The notes: a model not told the origin generated them from the letters alone. 36,715 nt of DNA from Candidatus Fermentithermobacillaceae bacterium (GCA_012842425.1 DUSU01000029.1:1-36715), one strand, 5' to 3'; positions 10,822-31,998 are shown, counted from the first letter of the stretch. Made by a program: numbers and translations.

Positions 10822-11730
10822 CTACTTTGAAACTTCTTCCGCACGCTTCCGGTAGATGCCGAGGCCGGGCTTGTGATAGAGCCGCTCTCTGGGTTGTTTT
10901 TTTGTCTTGGGAATGACCACCGTCTTTCCGTCCGGCGTGACGGTCACTTCCGCGTCGACGACGCCCGACCTGGAACCCGACGCAGCCCGACTCTCGTAGG
11001 GTTGGTTTTTCTCGCTCTGGGCTTGGGATGCGTTTCTGGCCTTCATTATGTCGGCCAGCACGTTTAGCGCCAGCGTGATTATCCGTGGGTCTATGCCGAG
11101 TATCTGCTGAAACGGTGACGTAGGAGACTGTCCCGTAGGTTGGGCCGTCTGGTGCGAAGAGGCGCCCTCGGCGGTCTTCCTCTCGCCGCGGCCAGTCTCC
11201 TCACCGGAGGCCTTTTCTTCGGCGGATTCGGTGTCGCCCTGGGACTCTCCGCGGCCGGGCGCTTCTGCATCGGTGCTTCCGGTTCCTGCGTCATCTTGGC
11301 TGCCCGCGCCCCGAGTGCCGGAGGGCGAAGTGGCAGGTTCAGGCGTGGAGACGGACGGTCTGGATGATGCGGCCCTCGCCATTGTAAGCGCCGACAGTGA
11401 TCCCATGAGGGTGCCGATCAAGGACGGATCGATCCCGCCTTGCCCCTGGGTCCCTCCGAGAAGCTTTCCGGCCAAAGATATGATGGACGACATGAGGTCC
11501 GGCTCTTTGGGTTTTTCCGCCGCAGGCGTTCCTGAAGCGAGTGCCAAGGAACTAAGGAGGCCCATTGACGACTGGGCGCCCTGAGTGTCGCCGTAGAAGG
11601 AGAGGACGATCCCCAGGAGGTTCAGAAGTGCCAGGATACCGGCCTTTTCCCTCAGGGCCTTCTGATCTGATTCGGGACTGGAGAAAAGCACCGACCTGGC
11701 GATCTCTGATAGGGTCTTCTCAGTGTCCAT
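10822..11730 (-). CDS. Uncharacterised protein with long low-complexity acidic middle
   Basis: 302 residues, family not recognised. Residues about 1-125 are helical and Leu/Ala-rich, with hydrophobic segments AGILALLNLLGIVLSF and MGLLSSLALASG that could be membrane-associated or packed helices. Residues about 125-210 are low complexity (Ser, Glu, Gly, Thr, Ala). A second helical segment, ILGIDPRIITLALNVLADIMK, echoes an earlier one, GGIDPSLIGTLMGSLSALTM, suggesting a duplicated element. The tail is basic (LYHKPGLGIYRKRAEE). The start overlaps the stop of the YbaB-like gene by 11 bases, so the two are translationally coupled, and an intrinsic terminator follows. It is the last gene of a four-gene operon. 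A sporulation-related role is possible but not shown. Confidence 0.75.
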   Translation of the reverse strand: MDTEKTLSEIARSVLFSSPESDQKALREKAGILALLNLLGIVLSFYGDTQGAQSSMGLLSSLALASGTPAAEKPKEPDLMSSIISLAGKLLGGTQGQGGIDPSLIGTLMGSLSALTMARAASSRPSVSTPEPATSPSGTRGAGSQDDAGTGSTDAEAPGRGESQGDTESAEEKASGEETGRGERKTAEGASSHQTAQPTGQSPTSPFQQILGIDPRIITLALNVLADIMKARNASQAQSEKNQPYESRAASGSRSGVVDAEVTVTPDGKTVVIPKTKKQPRERLYHKPGLGIYRKRAEEVSK

Positions 11731-13953: not shown

Positions 13954-15528
13954 ATGAGAATTCTAGTGGCGATGAACGCATTTAAGGGGAGCCTCTCCGC
14001 AAGGGAGGCTTCATCGATTGTGGCCGGGGGGCTCCGAAAAGGATTTCGTGAAGCCAAGGTCATCGAGATGCCGCTGGCCGACGGCGGCGACGGGACCGTC
14101 CAGGTCTTGTGCGGGGGTCCAGCAGGCGAGATTGCTGAGGTAGAGGTAACGGGCCCTCTGGGGAAGCCGGTCAAGGCAGAGGTGGGCCTCTTGGATGGAG
14201 GGAAGACGGCGGTCATCGAGAGCGCCCAGGCTTGTGGCCTTGCCCTTCTCGTCGATGGACAACGGGATGTCCGCAGGGCCCAAAGCACGGGTGTCGGCGA
14301 ACTGATGCTCTGGGCCGTCCGGCGGGGAGCCAGGCGCCTGGTAGTAGGCATCGGCGGGACGGCCATGAACGACGGAGGCATCGGAGCCGTCCAGGCCGCG
14401 GGAGGAAAGGTCCTCGACGCGGACGGGCGTCAGGTGGGGCCCGGCATTACAGGACTCCTGGACGTTTCTTCTGTCTCGCGGGGCTCAATCCCTGAGGATT
14501 TCAAGGGCGTTGAGGTCATCGCGATAACCGATGTTCGTAATCCACTGGTCGGTCCCCATGGGGCGACCCGCGTCTACGGTCCTCAGAAGGGACTGGCGAG
14601 CGACGAGATCGAGGAAGTTGACGAAGCCATGCGCCGGTACGCAGCCATTTTGGGAAGGGACTTGGGCCAGGACCCATCCGACCTGCCGGGAGCAGGTGCC
14701 GGCGGTGGGCTTGCGGCCGCAATGGCAGCGTTCTTCGGGGCGAGATTTGAAAGCGGCTCTTGCTTTGTCATGAAGGAAACCGGCTTCTTCGAAGAACTCG
14801 GCTGCGCCGACCTTGTGGTCACGGGCGAAGGTTCCATTGACTCCCAAACGGTGCAGGGCAAAGTACCGTTTGCGGTTGCGGAAGCGGCTTATTGGATGGG
14901 AGTGCCCGTCATCGCGTTGGGAGGAGGCCTTGCCAGGGACGTGCTCTCGGGCTATCCTCCGGAGTTCGCGGCCTTGTTTTCGACAACGCTCCGGCCGGAA
15001 GGACTAAGTGAGGCGATGGCGAGCGCCCGGGAAAACCTCTTCTTCGCCGCGGAGCAGATCGGCAAGGCAGGCAGGGTGTTCGCTTCGTCGCGGGCGAGGC
15101 GGCAGGACTTCGCGGTAGGAGGCATTGTCGTAAGGGAGTCCGGAAGTGGACTTGAGGTGCTCCTCATCGAGGACCGCTGGGGGATGGTCGCGCCGCCTAA
15201 GGGCCATATGGAACCGGGAGAGACTCCCGAAGAGGCGGCGACGCGCGAGGTATATGAGGAAACGGGGATCCGTGTAGCGGTCGCAGGAGATGTAGGAGAG
15301 GTCAAGTACCGCTTTTTCGCTCAAGACGGAGAGGTAGTGGAGAAAGCCGTCAGGTACTTCCTGATGACTCCGGTGGGCGGCGAGCCCAGGCCTCAAGAAG
15401 GGGAAACCCAGAGAGTCATGTGGGTGAGCGCGAGAGATCTGCCCGGAATGAGGTGTTACAGGGACACTCTCGCCATAGTCAGGCGGGGGCTCAAAGTCTT
15501 CCGCGCCGGACAGGATTCGACTTTCTGA
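13954..15528 (+). CDS. Glycerate kinase fused to a C-terminal NUDIX hydrolase domain
   Basis: 524 residues in one open frame. Residues 1 to about 375 are a type-1 glycerate kinase (GlxK/GarK, PF02595): MRILVAMNAFKGSLSAREAS, MPLADGGDGTVQVL, GIGGTAMNDGGIGAVQAAG, GAGAGGGLAAAMAAFFGA and TGEGSIDSQTVQGKVPFAVA. It phosphorylates D-glycerate with ATP, usually at the 2-hydroxyl in this family. From about residue 385 begins a NUDIX fold, FAVGGIVVRESGSGLEVLLI, with a complete Nudix box (G-x5-E-x7-REVYEETGI, near bases 15204-15270) preceded by PPKGHMEPG, resembling diadenosine-polyphosphate and MutT-type hydrolases. Each part matches the usual length of its family, so this is a true fusion and not readthrough of a short linker. 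It starts two bases after the dipeptidase stop. Confidence 0.92.
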   Translation: MRILVAMNAFKGSLSAREASSIVAGGLRKGFREAKVIEMPLADGGDGTVQVLCGGPAGEIAEVEVTGPLGKPVKAEVGLLDGGKTAVIESAQACGLALLVDGQRDVRRAQSTGVGELMLWAVRRGARRLVVGIGGTAMNDGGIGAVQAAGGKVLDADGRQVGPGITGLLDVSSVSRGSIPEDFKGVEVIAITDVRNPLVGPHGATRVYGPQKGLASDEIEEVDEAMRRYAAILGRDLGQDPSDLPGAGAGGGLAAAMAAFFGARFESGSCFVMKETGFFEELGCADLVVTGEGSIDSQTVQGKVPFAVAEAAYWMGVPVIALGGGLARDVLSGYPPEFAALFSTTLRPEGLSEAMASARENLFFAAEQIGKAGRVFASSRARRQDFAVGGIVVRESGSGLEVLLIEDRWGMVAPPKGHMEPGETPEEAATREVYEETGIRVAVAGDVGEVKYRFFAQDGEVVEKAVRYFLMTPVGGEPRPQEGETQRVMWVSARDLPGMRCYRDTLAIVRRGLKVFRAGQDSTF

Positions 15529-15559
15529 CGGGCTCTAGTCTGGTAAATTGTGGGTGAAA

Positions 15560-15610
15560 GGGACCCGGTGGCGTGCTCCGTGAGGGAAGCGCCGCGGGTC
15601 TCTGTGTGTT
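15560..15610 (+). terminator. Strong hairpin after the glycerate kinase fusion, possible terminator
   Basis: Bases 15560-15573 pair with 15590-15602 through about 13 bp with one bulged G, around a 16-base loop; TGTGTGTTT follows. The stem is strong and the T-tract is interrupted. The surrounding 185-base gap holds no convincing gene. Confidence 0.45.
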
Positions 15611-15722: not shown

Positions 15723-16484
15723 TTGGTCTACCGGGAACGTATGTTGGCGAGGCTACCCCGGCGGGTGGGCGTAAGCGTCTTCGTGAGTCGCCTTTTCTCC
15801 GGAGGCGTACGTGTTCTTGCAATCCCGCTGCTTACCTTGTTTATCGGCTGGTCTGCCTTATTTGCGATCCATGCCTACCAATACAGAGAAGAGTTCGTCT
15901 TCGTTACGATTGAGGAGTCCTCGTCCCAAGCCCTCGCGGCGTTGCCCCTTGGTTTGGAGAGGCTCACAGGGGTCTTCGTAGACTGTGAGAAAAGGTGCCT
16001 AGAACTCGAGAAAAAACCCCGGCTTTGGGGCGTTTCACTCGGAGCCTACTATTCGGCGTCTTCGCAAGGGATAGAGTTTGAGGAGTCCATCGACTTCTCA
16101 AGAGGAGGCAAGGTCACCATTCCGTTGGGCCGTCCCGTTTCCGTGCCTCTGCGGGACCTCTCCGGGAACATCGTGGAGCTCGTAGACAACTCGGCGAGGG
16201 TTGCAAGGGGCGATCTGGTCATTGAGGGTACGGAAAGGTCGGGCGTTGTCCGTTTCAGGTATGGGGGCGAATGCTTCTCTCTGGCGCCCGGCGAATCGTG
16301 GGCCGAACTCCTGGCCTTGGTGGACGGGACCGTGACCGAAGTGGACGAAGAGTCCTGGGAAGGCGCCGTCCAGGAGTACCTGGCTTCAGGGGTGCCGGTA
16401 ACCAGGATTGCTGTGTGCAACCGCGGGTTTTGGCCCAAGGCAGGCGTGCGCGCGCATGATAGCCGGGGAGGGGAGGTGTGGTGA
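15723..16484 (+). CDS. Uncharacterised single-pass membrane protein coupled to the pseudo-lipase gene
   Basis: About 253 residues: a basic N-terminus, one hydrophobic segment (VLAIPLLTLFIGWSALFAIH, about residues 30-49), and an extracytoplasmic domain of about 200 residues rich in beta-prone sequence, for example GKVTIPLGRPVSVPLRDLSG and SGVVRFRYGGECFSLAPGE. A Cys pair (DCEKRCLELEKK) and later single Cys residues may form disulfides outside the cell. No family recognised. The start is uncertain: AAGGAG (15707-15712) best suits TTG 15723, while GTG 15714 and ATG 15741 are alternatives. The stop overlaps the GTG of the next gene by four bases, so the two are very likely partners. Confidence 0.75.
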   Translation: MVYRERMLARLPRRVGVSVFVSRLFSGGVRVLAIPLLTLFIGWSALFAIHAYQYREEFVFVTIEESSSQALAALPLGLERLTGVFVDCEKRCLELEKKPRLWGVSLGAYYSASSQGIEFEESIDFSRGGKVTIPLGRPVSVPLRDLSGNIVELVDNSARVARGDLVIEGTERSGVVRFRYGGECFSLAPGESWAELLALVDGTVTEVDEESWEGAVQEYLASGVPVTRIAVCNRGFWPKAGVRAHDSRGGEVW

Positions 16485-19147
16485 GACTCCGTGTGAGACT
16501 ATGCTGCGTTCTCTTCATCGCCCTTGTGCTGGCTTTAGGCGGGGTCCCTGCCGGGGCACGCGGGGCTATTTCGCCGGGGCTCATCCGAGCGAGTGAAGCC
16601 TGCGCCAAGGCCGTCATGGCAGAAGCCCGAGTGGAGCCCAGGCCTGTCGTCATAATAGACGGGCCCTCCTTGGCCCGATACCTTGAAACGGTGGGATACA
16701 CGAGGGGTAAGGACCTCTTCGAGGTAAGCGTGGGCGAACTGAATGACCTGGAGAGCGGAGCCCTGCACGTTTCAGTAGCCATTAGGGAAGCGCTCTCCGG
16801 GGCGGGGCCGGGAAAAGCCGGCGCTGAAGTCGAATGCGACATCGTGGCCGCCGGGCTGCCGGGCGTGGTTGTCAGGTACGCCTTGGAAAAGGGCTACCTC
16901 AGCGACCTCAGAGTGGTGAATCTCGTCATGGCGGCGTCCCCAAACCGGGGCACCTTCCTTGCCGGAGTCCTGAAATCAGCCCTCGAGCTGGCGCGCCAGG
17001 AATCCATCCTCGAGCGACAGACGCGTGCCGAGAGGTTCCTGCCTTCGCTCAAGGACATGTTCGGTGACGGCGAGGGGCCCGTTTCACTTAAGGAGCTGAC
17101 CAAAGCCCAGTCCCTGAAGCCTCCCGAGTGGGAAGATGAGGCTTCCTGGATCTCCACGAGGTCCACTACCCTATGGGAACCGTTGTACGCAGAATACGTG
17201 AAAAACCGTTTCCTAGCGCTTCCCTATGTACCCGCCCAGTCGCCGAAAGAGACGTTCGCGGGTTGGGTGAGGAGAACCCTGCCGGATGTCTGGAAGCGGC
17301 TTATCGTCGAGGCCGAATGGCCGGCGTCCAAAGCGCAGAGGCTCTCTCTGCCTTACTACGAGTGCCTGGCTATGGAGGTGGCCAGGAACCAGTATGTCAT
17401 GAGGACGGCATCAAAAGGCAGCTTAGTGTCGAGCCTTCTCAAGGACCCCATCATTCCGAAGGACTGGAGAGAAGCGGTGGTCCACTACGGGACGAAACTC
17501 CTCATGCACTACGCCGGGAAAGCCCTCATCACGCTTAAGGCCTACGTCCAGGAGCTCATCGCTCGTGAAGCGGTCGAACTCACAGGGCTGGGTTCCGGAC
17601 CTGATTCTCCCCTTCTATCGGGGCTTATCAAAGAAGACATTCTCATAAACCTCGGCACATCTTCGTCCAAGCGATTTGAGCGCATCCCGGCCAACCTGGC
17701 GCTTCAGGAGCTCAACCGCTCGTCTCAAGCTTCCGCCAACCGGCGAGATACCAGGTATGTGTCGGTCCTGTCCAAACTCGCCAACCCTTGGGCCCTCATT
17801 TGGCCCGAGCTCGGGCCCAACGACAGCCTCCTTGAAGTAGACTGTGGCGTCCCTCCGGCGGGCACCAAAGACCTAATATTCGTCCTGAGCGGCGTATTGA
17901 GGCTTCCCGGAAAGCACGTGCTGGATGACCAGAAAGCCCAGGAGTATGTGGCAAAGGTGCTGCTGGAAGACGTTGAGACAAGACCTTCGCAGGCTTCTTC
18001 GCTATCCGCCGTCTATGTCTCAAGCTGGAGACCCGCCTACTGCGATGTCCGGGGAGCCTCAAAGGTGACTCTCGGTATAACTGAACTCCCACCAGGGTGG
18101 CAGTGCCAGGTGTGGGAGGAGTCCTATGGGACTTTCCAGACAGGCGAAGAAGCAGCGAGGTGTGTTCAAGGGGTCATGAGGGGGTTCGACCGCGGAGGCA
18201 CTCATCTGGTGCACCTCACCCCGGGCACCGAACGCTTGGGTTTTCGTCTTGTGAGGAGCGGTCCCCCAAATCCGGTCGCAGGCAATACGGTGACGTCGGC
18301 TTTCGCTCAAGAGGTGCTCGTCAGGGTGTTCGTGTCGGCGTCCGGTGGAAATGCGCCTGAGACAGGGGAAGAAGGAGATCCTCCCGGACAGGAAGGGCCT
18401 CCAGAGCCGGAAGACCCACCGGAAGACCCAAGAGAAACGCAGTCGCCCGGTCAGGGCGGGCTTCCAGGACCGGAAGAGGAGGCTGAGCTGCCCGATGAAC
18501 CTCCTGAGGAGTTGCCTGGCGGGTTCTCGGGTGAGCTTCCCGGGGACTCGCCCGAGGAGTTTCCTGAGGACTTGCCGACCGTCCGGGTTGTATACCGGTC
18601 CAAGCACACGACGCTGAAGAAACCGAAAGAAACCTTCCACGATCACTGGATCCTGGATTACGGCGACGAGTTGCGGGAGACAATCCCCGGTCATGTGTCG
18701 CTGGCCGCCGACCACACGTTTGAGTCGCCGGGGAGTTACTCTGTAACTGCAGAGTCGTATACAGGAGAGGGCAAACTCTTGTACCGGAAGACGTGGCACG
18801 TAAGCGTTGTACTCTCCGGGGAGACGCACAGGTTTGAGTGTCAAAGCGTAGCTCCCGTAGGCGTCGAGATTGCGGTCACAGGCCCAAAGAAATGGGTTAC
18901 GGGGAAAGTCGCGGTCTTCTCGGTGGGAGCCAAAATCGACCTTCCTCCCAACGCCGAACTCGTATCGGTCAAGTTCGACCCGGGCGAGATGTTCGGAGTC
19001 ATATGGGAGCGGGCGGGAGATTTTATAGTGGGAGCCGCGGCTTCAATCATTGTTAAATACTCATTGGAGGATGCTTGTATAGAAATAGAGAACGTTTTCC
19101 TGAAAGAAGTGCCTGTTACGGTGCTCACAACTGGTGTGACTATGTAG
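16481..19147 (+). CDS. Secreted lipase-like protein lacking the catalytic serine, with Pro/Glu-rich linker and PKD-like domain
   Basis: 888 residues. An N-terminal signal peptide (RLRVRL then CCVLFIALVLALGGVPAGARG) indicates export. Residues about 55-170 trace the start of an alpha/beta-hydrolase of the lipase/PGAP1 type: PVVIIDGPSLARYLETVGY in place of PVVxxHG..., and CDIVAAGLPGVVVRYALEKG aligned with the usual D-x-V-x-HSMGG-x-VARY, followed by NLVMAASPNRGT. The nucleophile position is G125 instead of Ser. A large helical middle region of unknown type follows. Residues about 622-700 are a Pro/Glu/Gly-rich linker. Residues about 703-780 resemble a PKD domain (WILDYGDEL, HTFESPGSYSVTAESYT). 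GTG 16481 overlaps the previous stop and follows a GGGGAGGGGAGG run. Confidence 0.8.
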   Translation: MRLRVRLCCVLFIALVLALGGVPAGARGAISPGLIRASEACAKAVMAEARVEPRPVVIIDGPSLARYLETVGYTRGKDLFEVSVGELNDLESGALHVSVAIREALSGAGPGKAGAEVECDIVAAGLPGVVVRYALEKGYLSDLRVVNLVMAASPNRGTFLAGVLKSALELARQESILERQTRAERFLPSLKDMFGDGEGPVSLKELTKAQSLKPPEWEDEASWISTRSTTLWEPLYAEYVKNRFLALPYVPAQSPKETFAGWVRRTLPDVWKRLIVEAEWPASKAQRLSLPYYECLAMEVARNQYVMRTASKGSLVSSLLKDPIIPKDWREAVVHYGTKLLMHYAGKALITLKAYVQELIAREAVELTGLGSGPDSPLLSGLIKEDILINLGTSSSKRFERIPANLALQELNRSSQASANRRDTRYVSVLSKLANPWALIWPELGPNDSLLEVDCGVPPAGTKDLIFVLSGVLRLPGKHVLDDQKAQEYVAKVLLEDVETRPSQASSLSAVYVSSWRPAYCDVRGASKVTLGITELPPGWQCQVWEESYGTFQTGEEAARCVQGVMRGFDRGGTHLVHLTPGTERLGFRLVRSGPPNPVAGNTVTSAFAQEVLVRVFVSASGGNAPETGEEGDPPGQEGPPEPEDPPEDPRETQSPGQGGLPGPEEEAELPDEPPEELPGGFSGELPGDSPEEFPEDLPTVRVVYRSKHTTLKKPKETFHDHWILDYGDELRETIPGHVSLAADHTFESPGSYSVTAESYTGEGKLLYRKTWHVSVVLSGETHRFECQSVAPVGVEIAVTGPKKWVTGKVAVFSVGAKIDLPPNAELVSVKFDPGEMFGVIWERAGDFIVGAAASIIVKYSLEDACIEIENVFLKEVPVTVLTTGVTM

Positions 19148-19196: not shown

Positions 19197-19247
19197 CGTC
19201 AAAGCGGAATAGTGTCCTCACAAAGCATGGGAGACGGAGGGATTCGG

Positions 19248-19994
19248 GTGTCTGCGCCTGTCATCCAAATTCAGGGATTACACAAGGAATACAGCATGGG
19301 CAAGGTGAAGGTTCCCGCACTAAAGGGTGTAGACCTTGAGGTCCCCACCGGTCAGTTCCTCGCGATCATGGGGCCTTCCGGCTCGGGAAAGTCGACCCTC
19401 ATGAACATCTTGGGGTGCCTGGATAGGCCCACAAAAGGTACTTACCTACTGGACGGAGCCGACGTAAGCCGGAAGAGCGACAACGAGCTGGCCGACATAA
19501 GGAACAAGTTCATCGGGTTCATCTTCCAGACGTTCAACCTTCTGTCGAGGACCAACGCGCTGGCCAACGTGGAACTGCCTCTTGTCTACAGGGGCATGGC
19601 GGCTGGAGAGCGGCGCAAGAGGGCCGTCAGGGCCCTGGAATCTGTTGGTCTAGCAGGCCGGATGACTCACAAACCCAACGAGATGTCAGGCGGAGAGCAG
19701 CAGCGAGTGGCCATCGCCAGAGCGATTGCCGGAGACCCCAAGGTGATCCTGGCCGACGAACCAACCGGCAACCTTGATTCAAGGTCCGGCGAGGAGGTCA
19801 TGTCGATATTCCAGGACCTCCATGAGAAGGGGATTACCTTGATACTCGTAACCCATGACCCTGACATCGCGCGGCACGCTGAGCGGATAATATCGGTGAA
19901 AGACGGCAGGATCATATCCGACGTCATGGTCGAAGACAGGCTGGACGCCAAGAAACTGCTCGCAGAGATGCCTGCTCACGAAGAACCGGCCTGA
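19248..19994 (+). CDS. ABC transporter ATP-binding protein, MacB/LolD type
   Basis: 248-residue nucleotide-binding subunit. Motifs: Walker [21 protein letters not shown]-loop [25 protein letters not shown] (split at IFQ), signature [15 protein letters not shown], Walker [14 protein letters not shown] and H-loop LVTHDPDIA. The [13 protein letters not shown]-like and [16 protein letters not shown] features place it in the LolD/MacB/FtsE-like group that pairs with FtsX-fold permeases. GTG 19248, six bases after GGAGGG (19236-19241), is preferred over ATG 19227 and GTG 19212. No permease gene is adjacent; two orphan MacB-type permeases lie about 9.3 kb downstream. Alternatively it serves the secreted-protein system just upstream. 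Confidence 0.92.
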
Positions 19995-19996
19995 AA

Positions 19997-20407
19997 CTAG
20001 GGTGAGAGTACTTCCCTGGCGATGTTCTTGAGAAGTTCCTTGCCCTCGGGACTCGTCAGGAAGGATTCTATCACTTCACTGAGGAGCTTTCGGAACTCAG
20101 ACGACTCCGCGGCTTGCCTCAGAAGGTCGTCAAACATGTCCCGTGAGGGGCCCTTTACGAGGTCTGTGATTATGGCCTTTCCCTGGTCAGATGCAAGGAT
20201 GTCGCCTACGATAGCCCTGACTTGAGAGGGGTCTATCTCAATACCCAGGGTGTCGGCAACCGACTTCTCCGATCCGCCCAACTTCCTCAAATACCAGACT
20301 GCCAGGTCGGGGGCGTACTCTCTTACTCCGTAGTAGGAACCGATAGTGAGTCCTATACCGAGAGCCATTCCGAGAAGTATGAGCGCGACGTAACGCGAGG
20401 TGTTCAA
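19997..20407 (-). CDS. Small membrane-anchored protein of unknown function
   Basis: About 136 residues with an N-terminal membrane segment (YVALILLGMALGIGLTIGSYYG) and an exterior or cytosolic helical domain: VADTLGIEIDPSQVRAIVGD, GPSRDMFDDLLRQAAES, SEFRKLLSEVIESFL, SPEGKELLKNIAREVL. Repeated short amphipathic helices suggest a helical bundle. TTG 20407 is ten bases after GAGGAGGG (20418-20425); ATG 20437 is the longer alternative without a clear site. It converges with the ABC ATPase, three bases apart, and is divergent from lgt. Family not recognised. Confidence 0.7.
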   Translation of the reverse strand: MNTSRYVALILLGMALGIGLTIGSYYGVREYAPDLAVWYLRKLGGSEKSVADTLGIEIDPSQVRAIVGDILASDQGKAIITDLVKGPSRDMFDDLLRQAAESSEFRKLLSEVIESFLTSPEGKELLKNIAREVLSP

Positions 20408-20492
20408 TCTGGAAAATCCCTCCTCGTGGCCTAGCATGCATTTATTGGTATGTGGTTATTCAGTCGTGTTATCATTGTGAAAAGGTGATCTC

Positions 20493-29305: not shown

Positions 29306-30673
29306 ATGTTCGTAGCCCTCGGACTAAAGAACGCATGGCGCAACCGCGGCAGGACGGCCCTGGGCATCATAAGCATGGCTGTTGCAGCCGTCATTTTCAT
29401 GTCGGGATCCACTTTGAGCAGGGGTTATCCGGCGGGAGCCTACTGGGAAGCCAGGCAGCTCGTCGGCGGCGAAATCCTCATGCTTCCCGAGAAGATAACT
29501 CTCTCTACGGATACGCTCGCGACCGGCGAGTATACTTGGAAGTTCGAGAAGAGAAGTTACGACAAGCCAAACCTCCTCATGGGTTTTGATTCCTCTCCGT
29601 ACCGATATGGATTTATGCGGGGAGTGCCTTCCGGCGGTGAAGAAGAGTCGGTACTCCCCAGGATTCACGAAGTGGCAGCAGAACTCCGTGCCGAGTCTTT
29701 TGTGGCAGGAGTGATGGTGCGCGAGGCCCTGCCTTTCTTGAGACAAACACAAGACAAGGATGCCCTTTACTATTACGAATACGGATTTGTGGAGCCCCGC
29801 GACGTCGTAAGCGACAAAGAGCGCTACAAGATAGAGGAAGCGCTTACTTCCGGGTGGGATCGCTACTTGAACGAGGGCGAGATGATGACCGGAGTCGAAT
29901 GCTTGTGGCAGAACCTATCTGCCTTCGGTGACCTTCTGTTTCCCAGCATGTCCGAGGCCGGCTACGACTATGAGAACTCAGTCGCCATACGCCTGGACAT
30001 AGTGGGAGAAGTCAGCTTCCGCGGCCCCAACCCGGCCCTTCCCGCTTACGCGAACCCCGTGGTGTTTGTGACGCCCGAGACTTTTTCAGCGCTCAAGGAA
30101 GCCACGGGAGTCCCTGATTCGATGACTACCTGGGGGATAAGCGTCTCGGTCGATAACATGGCCGATCTGGAGAGTTACATCGCGCTGCTCAGGAGGAAGT
30201 ACCCCGACTTCACCGTATACGGGATCCCACAGCTTGCGGCTGCGGCTTCGAACAGGGAATCCGTTGCAAGCGGCGTGCCGATGGACATGCGGCGGGTGAC
30301 CGAGGCCCTCTCTTTCATGGTAGCCGCTCTCCTCTCGGCGACCAATTTGTCCATCCTTATGCTGGCTAGGAAAAACGAGATCGGGATCCTCAGGGCCCTG
30401 GGAGCCACGAGATGGAACATCACCTGCATGGTGCTTTCCGAGTCGCTCTGGATTGCCTTCCTGGGGTCACTGATAGGGAGCCTGCTGACACAGCCCGCAG
30501 TCCTGTACCAGCTTATGTCCAACAGGCTGCCGTCGCAGACCGTCATCTCTACAGTTGGCGTAAACCTCGGGAAATCGCTGGGCTTCTCTCTCTGCGCAGC
30601 AGTGCTTTTTGGGTTCCTGCCTGTGGCCAAGGCCCTTAGGGTTACTCCGGCCCAAGTCATGAGAGGCGAGTGA
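29306..30673 (+). CDS. ABC transporter permease, MacB/FtsX type (first of a pair)
   Basis: 455 residues with the MacB topology: one N-terminal membrane helix (LGIISMAVAAVIFMSGST), a large extracytoplasmic domain of about 280 residues, and three C-terminal helices. The FtsX-domain signature RKNEIGILRALGATRWNITC lies between helices 2 and 3, and the tail reads PVAKALRVTPAQVMRGE. Such proteins use an ATPase for mechanotransmission, releasing lipoproteins, peptides or drugs. ATG 29306 follows AGGGAGG. The stop overlaps the next permease (GTGA). No ATPase is next to it. Confidence 0.9.
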   Translation: MFVALGLKNAWRNRGRTALGIISMAVAAVIFMSGSTLSRGYPAGAYWEARQLVGGEILMLPEKITLSTDTLATGEYTWKFEKRSYDKPNLLMGFDSSPYRYGFMRGVPSGGEEESVLPRIHEVAAELRAESFVAGVMVREALPFLRQTQDKDALYYYEYGFVEPRDVVSDKERYKIEEALTSGWDRYLNEGEMMTGVECLWQNLSAFGDLLFPSMSEAGYDYENSVAIRLDIVGEVSFRGPNPALPAYANPVVFVTPETFSALKEATGVPDSMTTWGISVSVDNMADLESYIALLRRKYPDFTVYGIPQLAAAASNRESVASGVPMDMRRVTEALSFMVAALLSATNLSILMLARKNEIGILRALGATRWNITCMVLSESLWIAFLGSLIGSLLTQPAVLYQLMSNRLPSQTVISTVGVNLGKSLGFSLCAAVLFGFLPVAKALRVTPAQVMRGE

Positions 30674-31998
30674 GGTATCAAGAGACTATGAGGGATGTCA
30701 TTGATCTTGCACGGGCCGGGTTCAGGCAGAAACTCGGGACATATCTGGTTATGACCCTCCTCGTCGCCGTTACCGTGGCCGGGTACCTTGTGGTGAGTTC
30801 CTACTGGCAGGACGCCGCCGAGGTTTCCACGGGTACTGCAGAGCCGCTCAACTTCCCGTACATCAAAGCACACGTGGTACATGCGTACTTGTCCAATCCG
30901 CCGGTGAGCAGAGACCCTGAAGTGCCCGCGCCGCCGCGTAAGTACGTCCCGCTCTTTAACGACAAGGAACTTGAGAAGATAACGAAGATAAACAATGTGG
31001 AGTCGCTCAGCGTTGCCCTTTCTCAGGACAGTTTTTCGCGCTTCGGACACCTCGAGTATTTGTCGATAGAGACAGGTAACCCGCTGTGGGAGGATTTGGA
31101 CCTGCGGGAGGGCAGGCTTCCTGAGAACTCCGGGGAAATACTGATACCCGATACCATCCCGGATGCTTCCTCCTACATAGGCCAGGTGATCCGCTTGCGG
31201 GTTACCCGGGCCATCGTTCCCCAGTCGTTCTGGAAGGACCCCCTCCTTAAAGACGCCCCAGATCCTGAAACTACGAAGGACCTCCAAGTGGTGGGCGTTT
31301 ACCGTCCATCCAGCCAAATGCTATCCGGTCTCGTAGGTTGGCTTGAGGTGAGGAGGGTGGATGACTACCCCGAGCGCGATCCCGACAATGTACCTATGGA
31401 CTGGCCTGTGCCCAACACCCTGTTTCTAAAGCTTGACGATCCGACCAAAGCCCATTCTGTTTCCCTCTCCTGGCGGGTTCTCTATCCGGAGATGCCCGAG
31501 GCACCTTATCCCATGATCCCGCCGTCGAAGGTGGAATGGTACCCCGATATCCCGGAGACCATGATGAAACAGGCCACGCAAGAGGTCGCCATGCCCATGT
31601 TCGCCAACACGTTGAACGCTTTTTCCCTGAGCGCCATCGGGATTTTCGCGGGCATGTTCATGTCCTTCCTTGATCGGCGAAAAGAGCTCGGCATCATGAA
31701 GACGGTCGGGATTGAAAGCTCCCGGATCGCGGCGACCATAAGCACCGAAGTGATCTTCTGCGGTGTCCTGGGCACTGTGGCCGGCGCTCTGATTGCCGGC
31801 GCAGTTACTACCTATTTGGTGACGGGCATTTCGGGCAATCCAATAGCCATACCTTGGACCGCCCTCTTGCGCGGGGTTTCGGTGGCAGCGATCATCTTGG
31901 CGGCTGCCACATATATCCCCAATGCTATGGCCCGTCAGGGGACCGTGATGGAGCTACTCTACGGGCGGCCAATACCCATCGTCAGGAAGAGAAGCTGA
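30670..31998 (+). CDS. ABC transporter permease, MacB/FtsX type (second of a pair)
   Basis: 442 residues with the same layout: N-terminal helix TYLVMTLLVAVTVAGYLVV, an outer domain of about 270 residues with LREGRLPENSGEILIPDT (typical MacB_PCD strand), then helices near 315-340, 355-385 and 400-420. The loop DRRKELGIMKTVGIESSRI matches the FtsX-domain signature. The start is GTG 30670 overlapping the previous stop by four bases, so the two permeases should form a heterodimer. The substrate is not evident. The nearest suitable ATPase gene in the window is at 19.2-20.0 kb. Confidence 0.9.
   Translation: MRYQETMRDVIDLARAGFRQKLGTYLVMTLLVAVTVAGYLVVSSYWQDAAEVSTGTAEPLNFPYIKAHVVHAYLSNPPVSRDPEVPAPPRKYVPLFNDKELEKITKINNVESLSVALSQDSFSRFGHLEYLSIETGNPLWEDLDLREGRLPENSGEILIPDTIPDASSYIGQVIRLRVTRAIVPQSFWKDPLLKDAPDPETTKDLQVVGVYRPSSQMLSGLVGWLEVRRVDDYPERDPDNVPMDWPVPNTLFLKLDDPTKAHSVSLSWRVLYPEMPEAPYPMIPPSKVEWYPDIPETMMKQATQEVAMPMFANTLNAFSLSAIGIFAGMFMSFLDRRKELGIMKTVGIESSRIAATISTEVIFCGVLGTVAGALIAGAVTTYLVTGISGNPIAIPWTALLRGVSVAAIILAAATYIPNAMARQGTVMELLYGRPIPIVRKRS

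Follow-up and report, generated by a model that had tools for sequence, protein, structure and literature searches.

A conserved gene pair of Candidatus Fermentithermobacillaceae encodes an exported pseudo-lipase and a membrane protein that may tether it

Two overlapping genes encode a single-pass membrane protein (P2) and a large exported protein of lipase ancestry (P1) in the window, as we call the whole stretch of 36,715 nucleotides that was analysed (contig 11 of a genome of 1.68 Mb, 84% complete). On balance we favour, with a little better than even confidence, the view that the two proteins form a maintained, non-catalytic binding or scaffold complex tethered to the membrane, with P2 as the tether and the C-terminal domains of P1 facing outward. 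In such a complex, P1 would be exported with its hydrolase scaffold kept and would work through binding and not hydrolysis. The outer domain of P2 would hold the hydrolase-like domain of P1 at the outer face of the membrane, and the flexible linker, the PKD domain and the C-terminal beta domain would extend into the wall or surface layer. P1 and P2 would dock directly, and the domain type and export of P1 suggest a surface or wall ligand.

The checkable description of the sequence in the initial annotation was right on every point, including the four-base stop/start overlap that joins the two genes. The bases GTGA at 16481-16484 hold both the start codon of P1 (GTG, from 16481) and the stop codon of P2 (TGA, 16482-16484). 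For P2, a TTG start at 15723 is plausible from the sequence, because TTG or GTG is conserved at this place in the genus; the stretch AAGGAGCGTGC..TTG is kept in two relatives, and a third has GTG instead. In most loci a P2 homologue immediately precedes P1, commonly with an overlap. The pair is beyond chance, since it is conserved across one bacterial class. Among named genomes, the nearest are assemblies from metagenomes, assigned to Candidatus Fermentithermobacillaceae (Bacillota).

Table 1. Features of the P2-P1 gene pair (window positions; residue numbers are those of the encoded protein).
Feature	Position	Strand	Basis
P2, single-pass membrane protein, 253 aa	15723..16484	+	homologues directly 5' of P1 in most loci
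P2 transmembrane helix (predicted), approximate coding region	15810..15880	+	model helix residues 17-53; hydrophobic stretch
Shine-Dalgarno-like GGGGAGG for P1, inside the end of P2	16466..16475	+	sequence reading
P1, exported pseudo-lipase, 888 aa	16481..19147	+	sequence, alignment, model, fold comparison
P1 signal sequence, residues ~1-28	16481..16564	+	sequence reading; weakly constrained within genus
Hydrolase core, first part, residues ~53-165 (strands, nucleophile elbow, SPNRGT)	16637..16975	+	model pLDDT mostly 79-86
D60-G61, oxyanion motif (HG in most Ser-bearing relatives)	16658..16663	+	alignment
Gly125 (GGG), lipase nucleophile position	16853..16855	+	alignment
Helical insertion in hydrolase domain, residues ~166-400 (~235 residues)	16976..17680	+	low-confidence model
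Hydrolase core, last part, residues ~401-500	17681..17980	+	alignment, model, fold comparison
Asp448 (GPND), catalytic Asp position	17822..17824	+	by alignment
Gly477 (RLPGKH), catalytic His position of relatives	17909..17911	+	alignment
Pro/Glu/Gly-rich linker, residues ~616-698	18326..18574	+	sequence; pLDDT <50; fast-evolving
PKD domain, residues ~699-780	18575..18820	+	PKD models, profile to ColH, ColG PKD match
C-terminal beta domain, residues ~781-888	18821..19144	+	model, conservation

P1 has the length first ascribed to it and an N-terminal signal sequence. The signal is followed by the hydrolase domain (within the first ~500 residues), a beta region, the linker, the PKD domain and the C-terminal beta domain, and both DIVAAGLPGVVVRYAL and SPNRGT are found in the protein. 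The Pro/Glu linker and the PKD-like domain after it are both present, as the initial annotation had them; the helical insertion, the second beta domain, at the C-terminus, and the loss of the catalytic His are features absent from it. A fold model of 861 residues, built on an alignment of 12 sequences, reached a mean pLDDT of 62. Confidence was mostly 79-86 in the hydrolase core and mostly 80-90 in the PKD and C-terminal beta part, which is the best conserved part of P1 across the class; the helical insertion was modelled poorly, with much of it below 50, and the linker was unstructured.

Comparison of the modelled fold with known lipases, a check proposed at the outset, recovered an alpha/beta-hydrolase fold in residues 24-471, which matched LipA-type lipases with Z scores of 14-16 (2.2-3.1 Å over 147-190 residues). 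In a structural re-alignment, a Streptomyces lipase scored Z 16.2 and structures of Bacillus LipA scored 14-15. The ranks in plain Foldseek searches were weak, as expected for a long, multidomain model, and these searches also retrieved the PKD domain of ColG (E 0.0025). A family profile of 22 members led to LipA/EstA (E about 1e-12) and to the PKD region of ColH (E 4e-7). Among the same 22 members, Pfam detected PKD models in 16 to 18, DUF7379 in 12, Lipase_2 in seven and PGAP1 in five (E up to 0.01). Neither P1 nor P2 of the window matched a Pfam or NCBIfam family above cut-off. P1 alone had no match to Pfam PKD models or to PGAP1 (PF07819), and its similarity to DUF7379 (PF24096, a domain of unknown function) covered residues 113-162 with E 0.0045 and 17.4 bits, below the curated cut-off of 33. 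Scans with the single proteins were thus nearly blank, and the kinship with lipases and PKD domains was seen only through the profile and members of the 22-sequence set. For the DNA scan, a closer set of sequences served as the query, because the 22-member alignment had no sufficiently conserved stretch. Of the lipase/PGAP1-like scaffold originally described, the lipase part stands on the Z scores and the profile match, and the PGAP1 part found no Pfam match in the P1 of the window.

P1 shares the alpha/beta-hydrolase core and the order of motifs with true lipases of the Bacillus LipA type (Lipase_2, PF01674), and it has an Asp at the catalytic Asp position (Asp448, placed by alignment only). 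In contrast with these lipases, it lacks the nucleophile Ser, the catalytic His and the HG motif, and it adds the helical insertion, the linker, the PKD domain, the C-terminal beta domain and a dedicated membrane partner. The C-terminal third shares the PKD fold and motif with the clostridial collagenases ColG and ColH; unlike these, P1 has no peptidase domain, and a further conserved beta domain follows its PKD domain.

The replacements noted initially in the lipase motifs are present: the codon at the nucleophile position encodes a Gly that aligns with the lipase Ser, and residues 60-61 are DG in place of HG. The conservation of the nucleophile position was then followed in 60 hydrolase-bearing homologues, which have Gly in 41 cases, Ser in 17, Asp in one and Thr in one, so that Ser is retained in 17/60 and replaced in 43/60; the members of the window's order that were examined have Gly alone. 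Manual scoring of the alignment showed the catalytic His to be retained in all 15 scorable Ser forms and in 17 of the 43 non-Ser forms and lost in the other 26, and the HG motif occurs in 14/17 Ser forms and 8/43 non-Ser forms, all of these being raw counts that ignore kinship. A phylogenetic paired test for links between Ser and either His or HG had too little power, with three pairs on well-supported independent branches. The P1 of the window is very unlikely to be a classical serine hydrolase.

The non-Ser state appears, from the sequences, to have arisen more than once, nearly always as Gly. The best tree has ten state changes at the nucleophile, three of which are forced by well-supported branches, and placing all non-Ser sequences on one side of the tree was rejected (p-AU 1.7e-75, on a quick tree in which some end branches are long). 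Since true lipases outside the family have Ser, this residue is taken as ancestral, and the direction of change would be from Ser to non-Ser. Backbone angles at the nucleophile elbow are strained, and glycine is the residue best able to adopt them, which suggests why Gly would be favoured there once selection for catalysis had ended. Some Ser-bearing relatives keep HG, Asp and His together with the same P2 partner, which argues that inactivity is not what defines the pair. Such relatives are presumably active esterases or lipases, from which the inactive forms would have arisen more than once.

Within the genus, dN/dS is 0.15-0.19 for P1 and 0.16-0.24 for P2. This indicates that P1 is maintained by purifying selection. 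The insertion (0.09-0.12) and the PKD and C-terminal part (0.12-0.14) have the lowest values among the domains of P1, and the signal sequence and the linker have the highest; the strongest constraint lies away from the former catalytic elbow. P1 shows the marks of a pseudoenzyme, namely homology with enzymes, loss of catalytic residues and purifying selection.

P2 has one predicted transmembrane helix and an outer domain of ~200 residues that was modelled as beta-rich, in keeping with the single-pass protein first described. No significant match was found in Pfam, NCBIfam or the PDB. A P2 profile found no PDB chain up to E 10, a result still compatible with distant kinship to Lif, the lipase foldase discussed below, and a fold search of the PDB and of viral models gave no convincing match (best Z 4.8, to the helix alone). 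These failed fold searches do not establish P2 as a new fold.

The distribution of the two proteins was surveyed in 137 genomes of the class, at least 85% complete except for the window's own. P1 with its hydrolase domain occurs in 62 of these, and 61 of the 62 have a P2 match; the remaining genome (G061) has a divergent P2-like gene upstream of P1, judged by eye. In two genomes (G018 and G044), P2 lies apart from P1, elsewhere in the genome. Eight genomes of the class have the PKD and C-terminal part only, and P2 occurs in none of them. A single genome (G099) has a P2 match without P1, and this match is weak (E 4e-5). The formal p value for co-occurrence across the 137 genomes, 7e-37, overstates the evidence because the genomes are related. 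Given 61/62 against 0/8, P2 accompanies the hydrolase-like domain in its Ser and non-Ser forms alike, a nearly exceptionless pattern that bears out the proposed tie of P1 to a membrane partner. Since the C-terminal part occurs in eight genomes that lack the hydrolase domain, the two halves of P1 may have separate jobs. Proteins of this shorter kind are encoded at L036 9417-10943, L126 4584-6320, L129 4067-5128 and L140 3784-4548, in genomes where P2 was not found. Upstream of the only Asp-type P1 is a gene for a 573-aa protein (L109 5441-7162, minus strand), the first half of which resembles a very divergent P2 and which carries a long extension. Outside the class but in the same phylum, almost all matches were ordinary lipases that matched the first domain only, and one genome (G161) was the sole one there with the C-terminal part of P1.

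Upstream of the pair, a glycerate kinase-NUDIX fusion occupies a single 524-aa frame (window 13954-15528), and its place next to the pair is conserved in the bacterial family. Between it and P2 lies a stem-loop (window 15559-15603; −31.4 kcal/mol, z −4.0) that is kept in the four genus members, and L044 has a hairpin with a T-rich tail at the same place. An RNA element was considered here; Rfam gave no match, and the stem-loop is probably the terminator of the upstream gene. Because that gene ends in a hairpin, the pair is probably transcribed from a separate promoter; a search of the coding strand gave no sigma-70-like site. Two further genes of the window encode proteins with no Pfam match: a 146-aa protein (19997-20437, minus strand), conserved between the ATPase gene that follows P1 and the Lgt gene in most loci of the order, and a 302-aa protein (10822-11730, minus strand), which adjoins a polysaccharide deacetylase gene and is conserved in many loci of the order. 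LpxC was found in 1/137 genomes of the class and Omp85 in 0/137, counts that give no support to an outer membrane of that kind or to an outer-membrane role for the pair. An identification of the class with Limnochordia was set aside, as the outer membranes published for that group (PMC11456536) do not match these counts.

The layout of the pair also recalls lipases with dedicated foldases. The main rival reading, possible if unlikely, is that P2 is a membrane-anchored foldase for the hydrolase-like domain and that P1 is released after folding and acts away from the membrane. LipA-type lipases, to which the closest structural matches of P1 belong, need no foldase, and Lif is helical, whereas P2 is beta-rich in the model and its profile had no match in the PDB up to E 10. 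On the other hand, the LipH/Lif foldase that serves Pseudomonas and Burkholderia lipases (LipH is described in PMC13381987) is likewise a single-pass protein with an outer domain, adjoining and tied to a lipase-fold gene. The foldase-dependent lipase 2es4 is among the structural matches of P1, and the strict tie of P2 to the hydrolase domain, with or without Ser, fits a foldase equally well. P2 differs from LipH/Lif in having no sequence or fold match and, in the window, a catalytically dead client. We regard it as improbable that the pair works with the neighbouring ATPase as the outer portion of a LolD/MacB-like machine for export or extraction. A LolD/MacB-like ABC ATPase is encoded right after P1 (window 19212-19994), as it is in 16/16 loci of the order that were examined and in one other family, and it has no adjoining permease. 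Further along the window, 10 kb downstream, are two FtsX-like permease genes that overlap (29306-30673 and 30670-31998), and their products may form one transporter with the ATPase. However, a hairpin separates P1 from the ATPase gene, and other orders carry different genes after P1 (FeoB-like, DUF1405-like membrane protein and others).

A sporulation gene pair would agree with the presence of SpoIVA, a sporulation marker, in 122/137 genomes of the class, including the window's. Many SpoIVA-positive genomes lack the pair, and ten genomes without a SpoIVA match keep it (G005, G010, G033, G045, G085, G086, G087, G091, G138 and G140), which speaks against a function limited to sporulation and makes this reading very doubtful. 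We find it similarly hard to credit that P1 has remained an enzyme, with water or a different nucleophile in place of Ser. In the window's genus, where Ser and the catalytic His are both absent, Asp448 persists and a His (His479) is found two residues past the usual His position, and certain Gly forms retain Asp and His; yet relatives in the same bacterial family have lost the Asp (PNN) and the His (SPSY). Moreover, no Ser, Cys or Thr is invariant in the hydrolase domain of the 22 diverse members. The loss of catalytic residues might also be that of a decaying pseudogene, an idea refuted, to near certainty, by the dN/dS of P1 and by frames that are intact in every genome of the window's genus.

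The reading we favour is that of a membrane-tethered, non-catalytic complex of P1 and P2. The initial annotation had proposed a non-catalytic binding or scaffold protein, a view that is supported in part: the kept lipase scaffold, the loss of Ser and His and the tie to P2 have held up. Neuroligins are cholinesterase-like proteins that, having lost the triad, use the scaffold for adhesion (PMC13404110). Like P1, they have an alpha/beta-hydrolase scaffold with a degenerate triad, and they bind at the cell surface; unlike P1, they are eukaryotic, belong to another branch of the fold and carry the transmembrane segment in the same chain, so that the likeness is one of analogy and not kinship. Since dead proteins of hydrolase fold are already known from neuroligins, the surprise is limited. 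A search of the literature on inactive bacterial lipases found nothing relevant. The chances seem even that the family is an undescribed two-protein surface complex with serine-bearing and dead forms across the class, the dead ones having arisen repeatedly, nearly always through Gly, and been kept for binding. P2 matches nothing known in the libraries searched. The occurrence of Ser and Gly forms with the same partner offers a natural experiment in the passage from enzyme to binding protein, and the pair is also a starting point, open to testing, for work on the cell envelope in a branch of the Bacillota that is little studied and for the most part uncultured.
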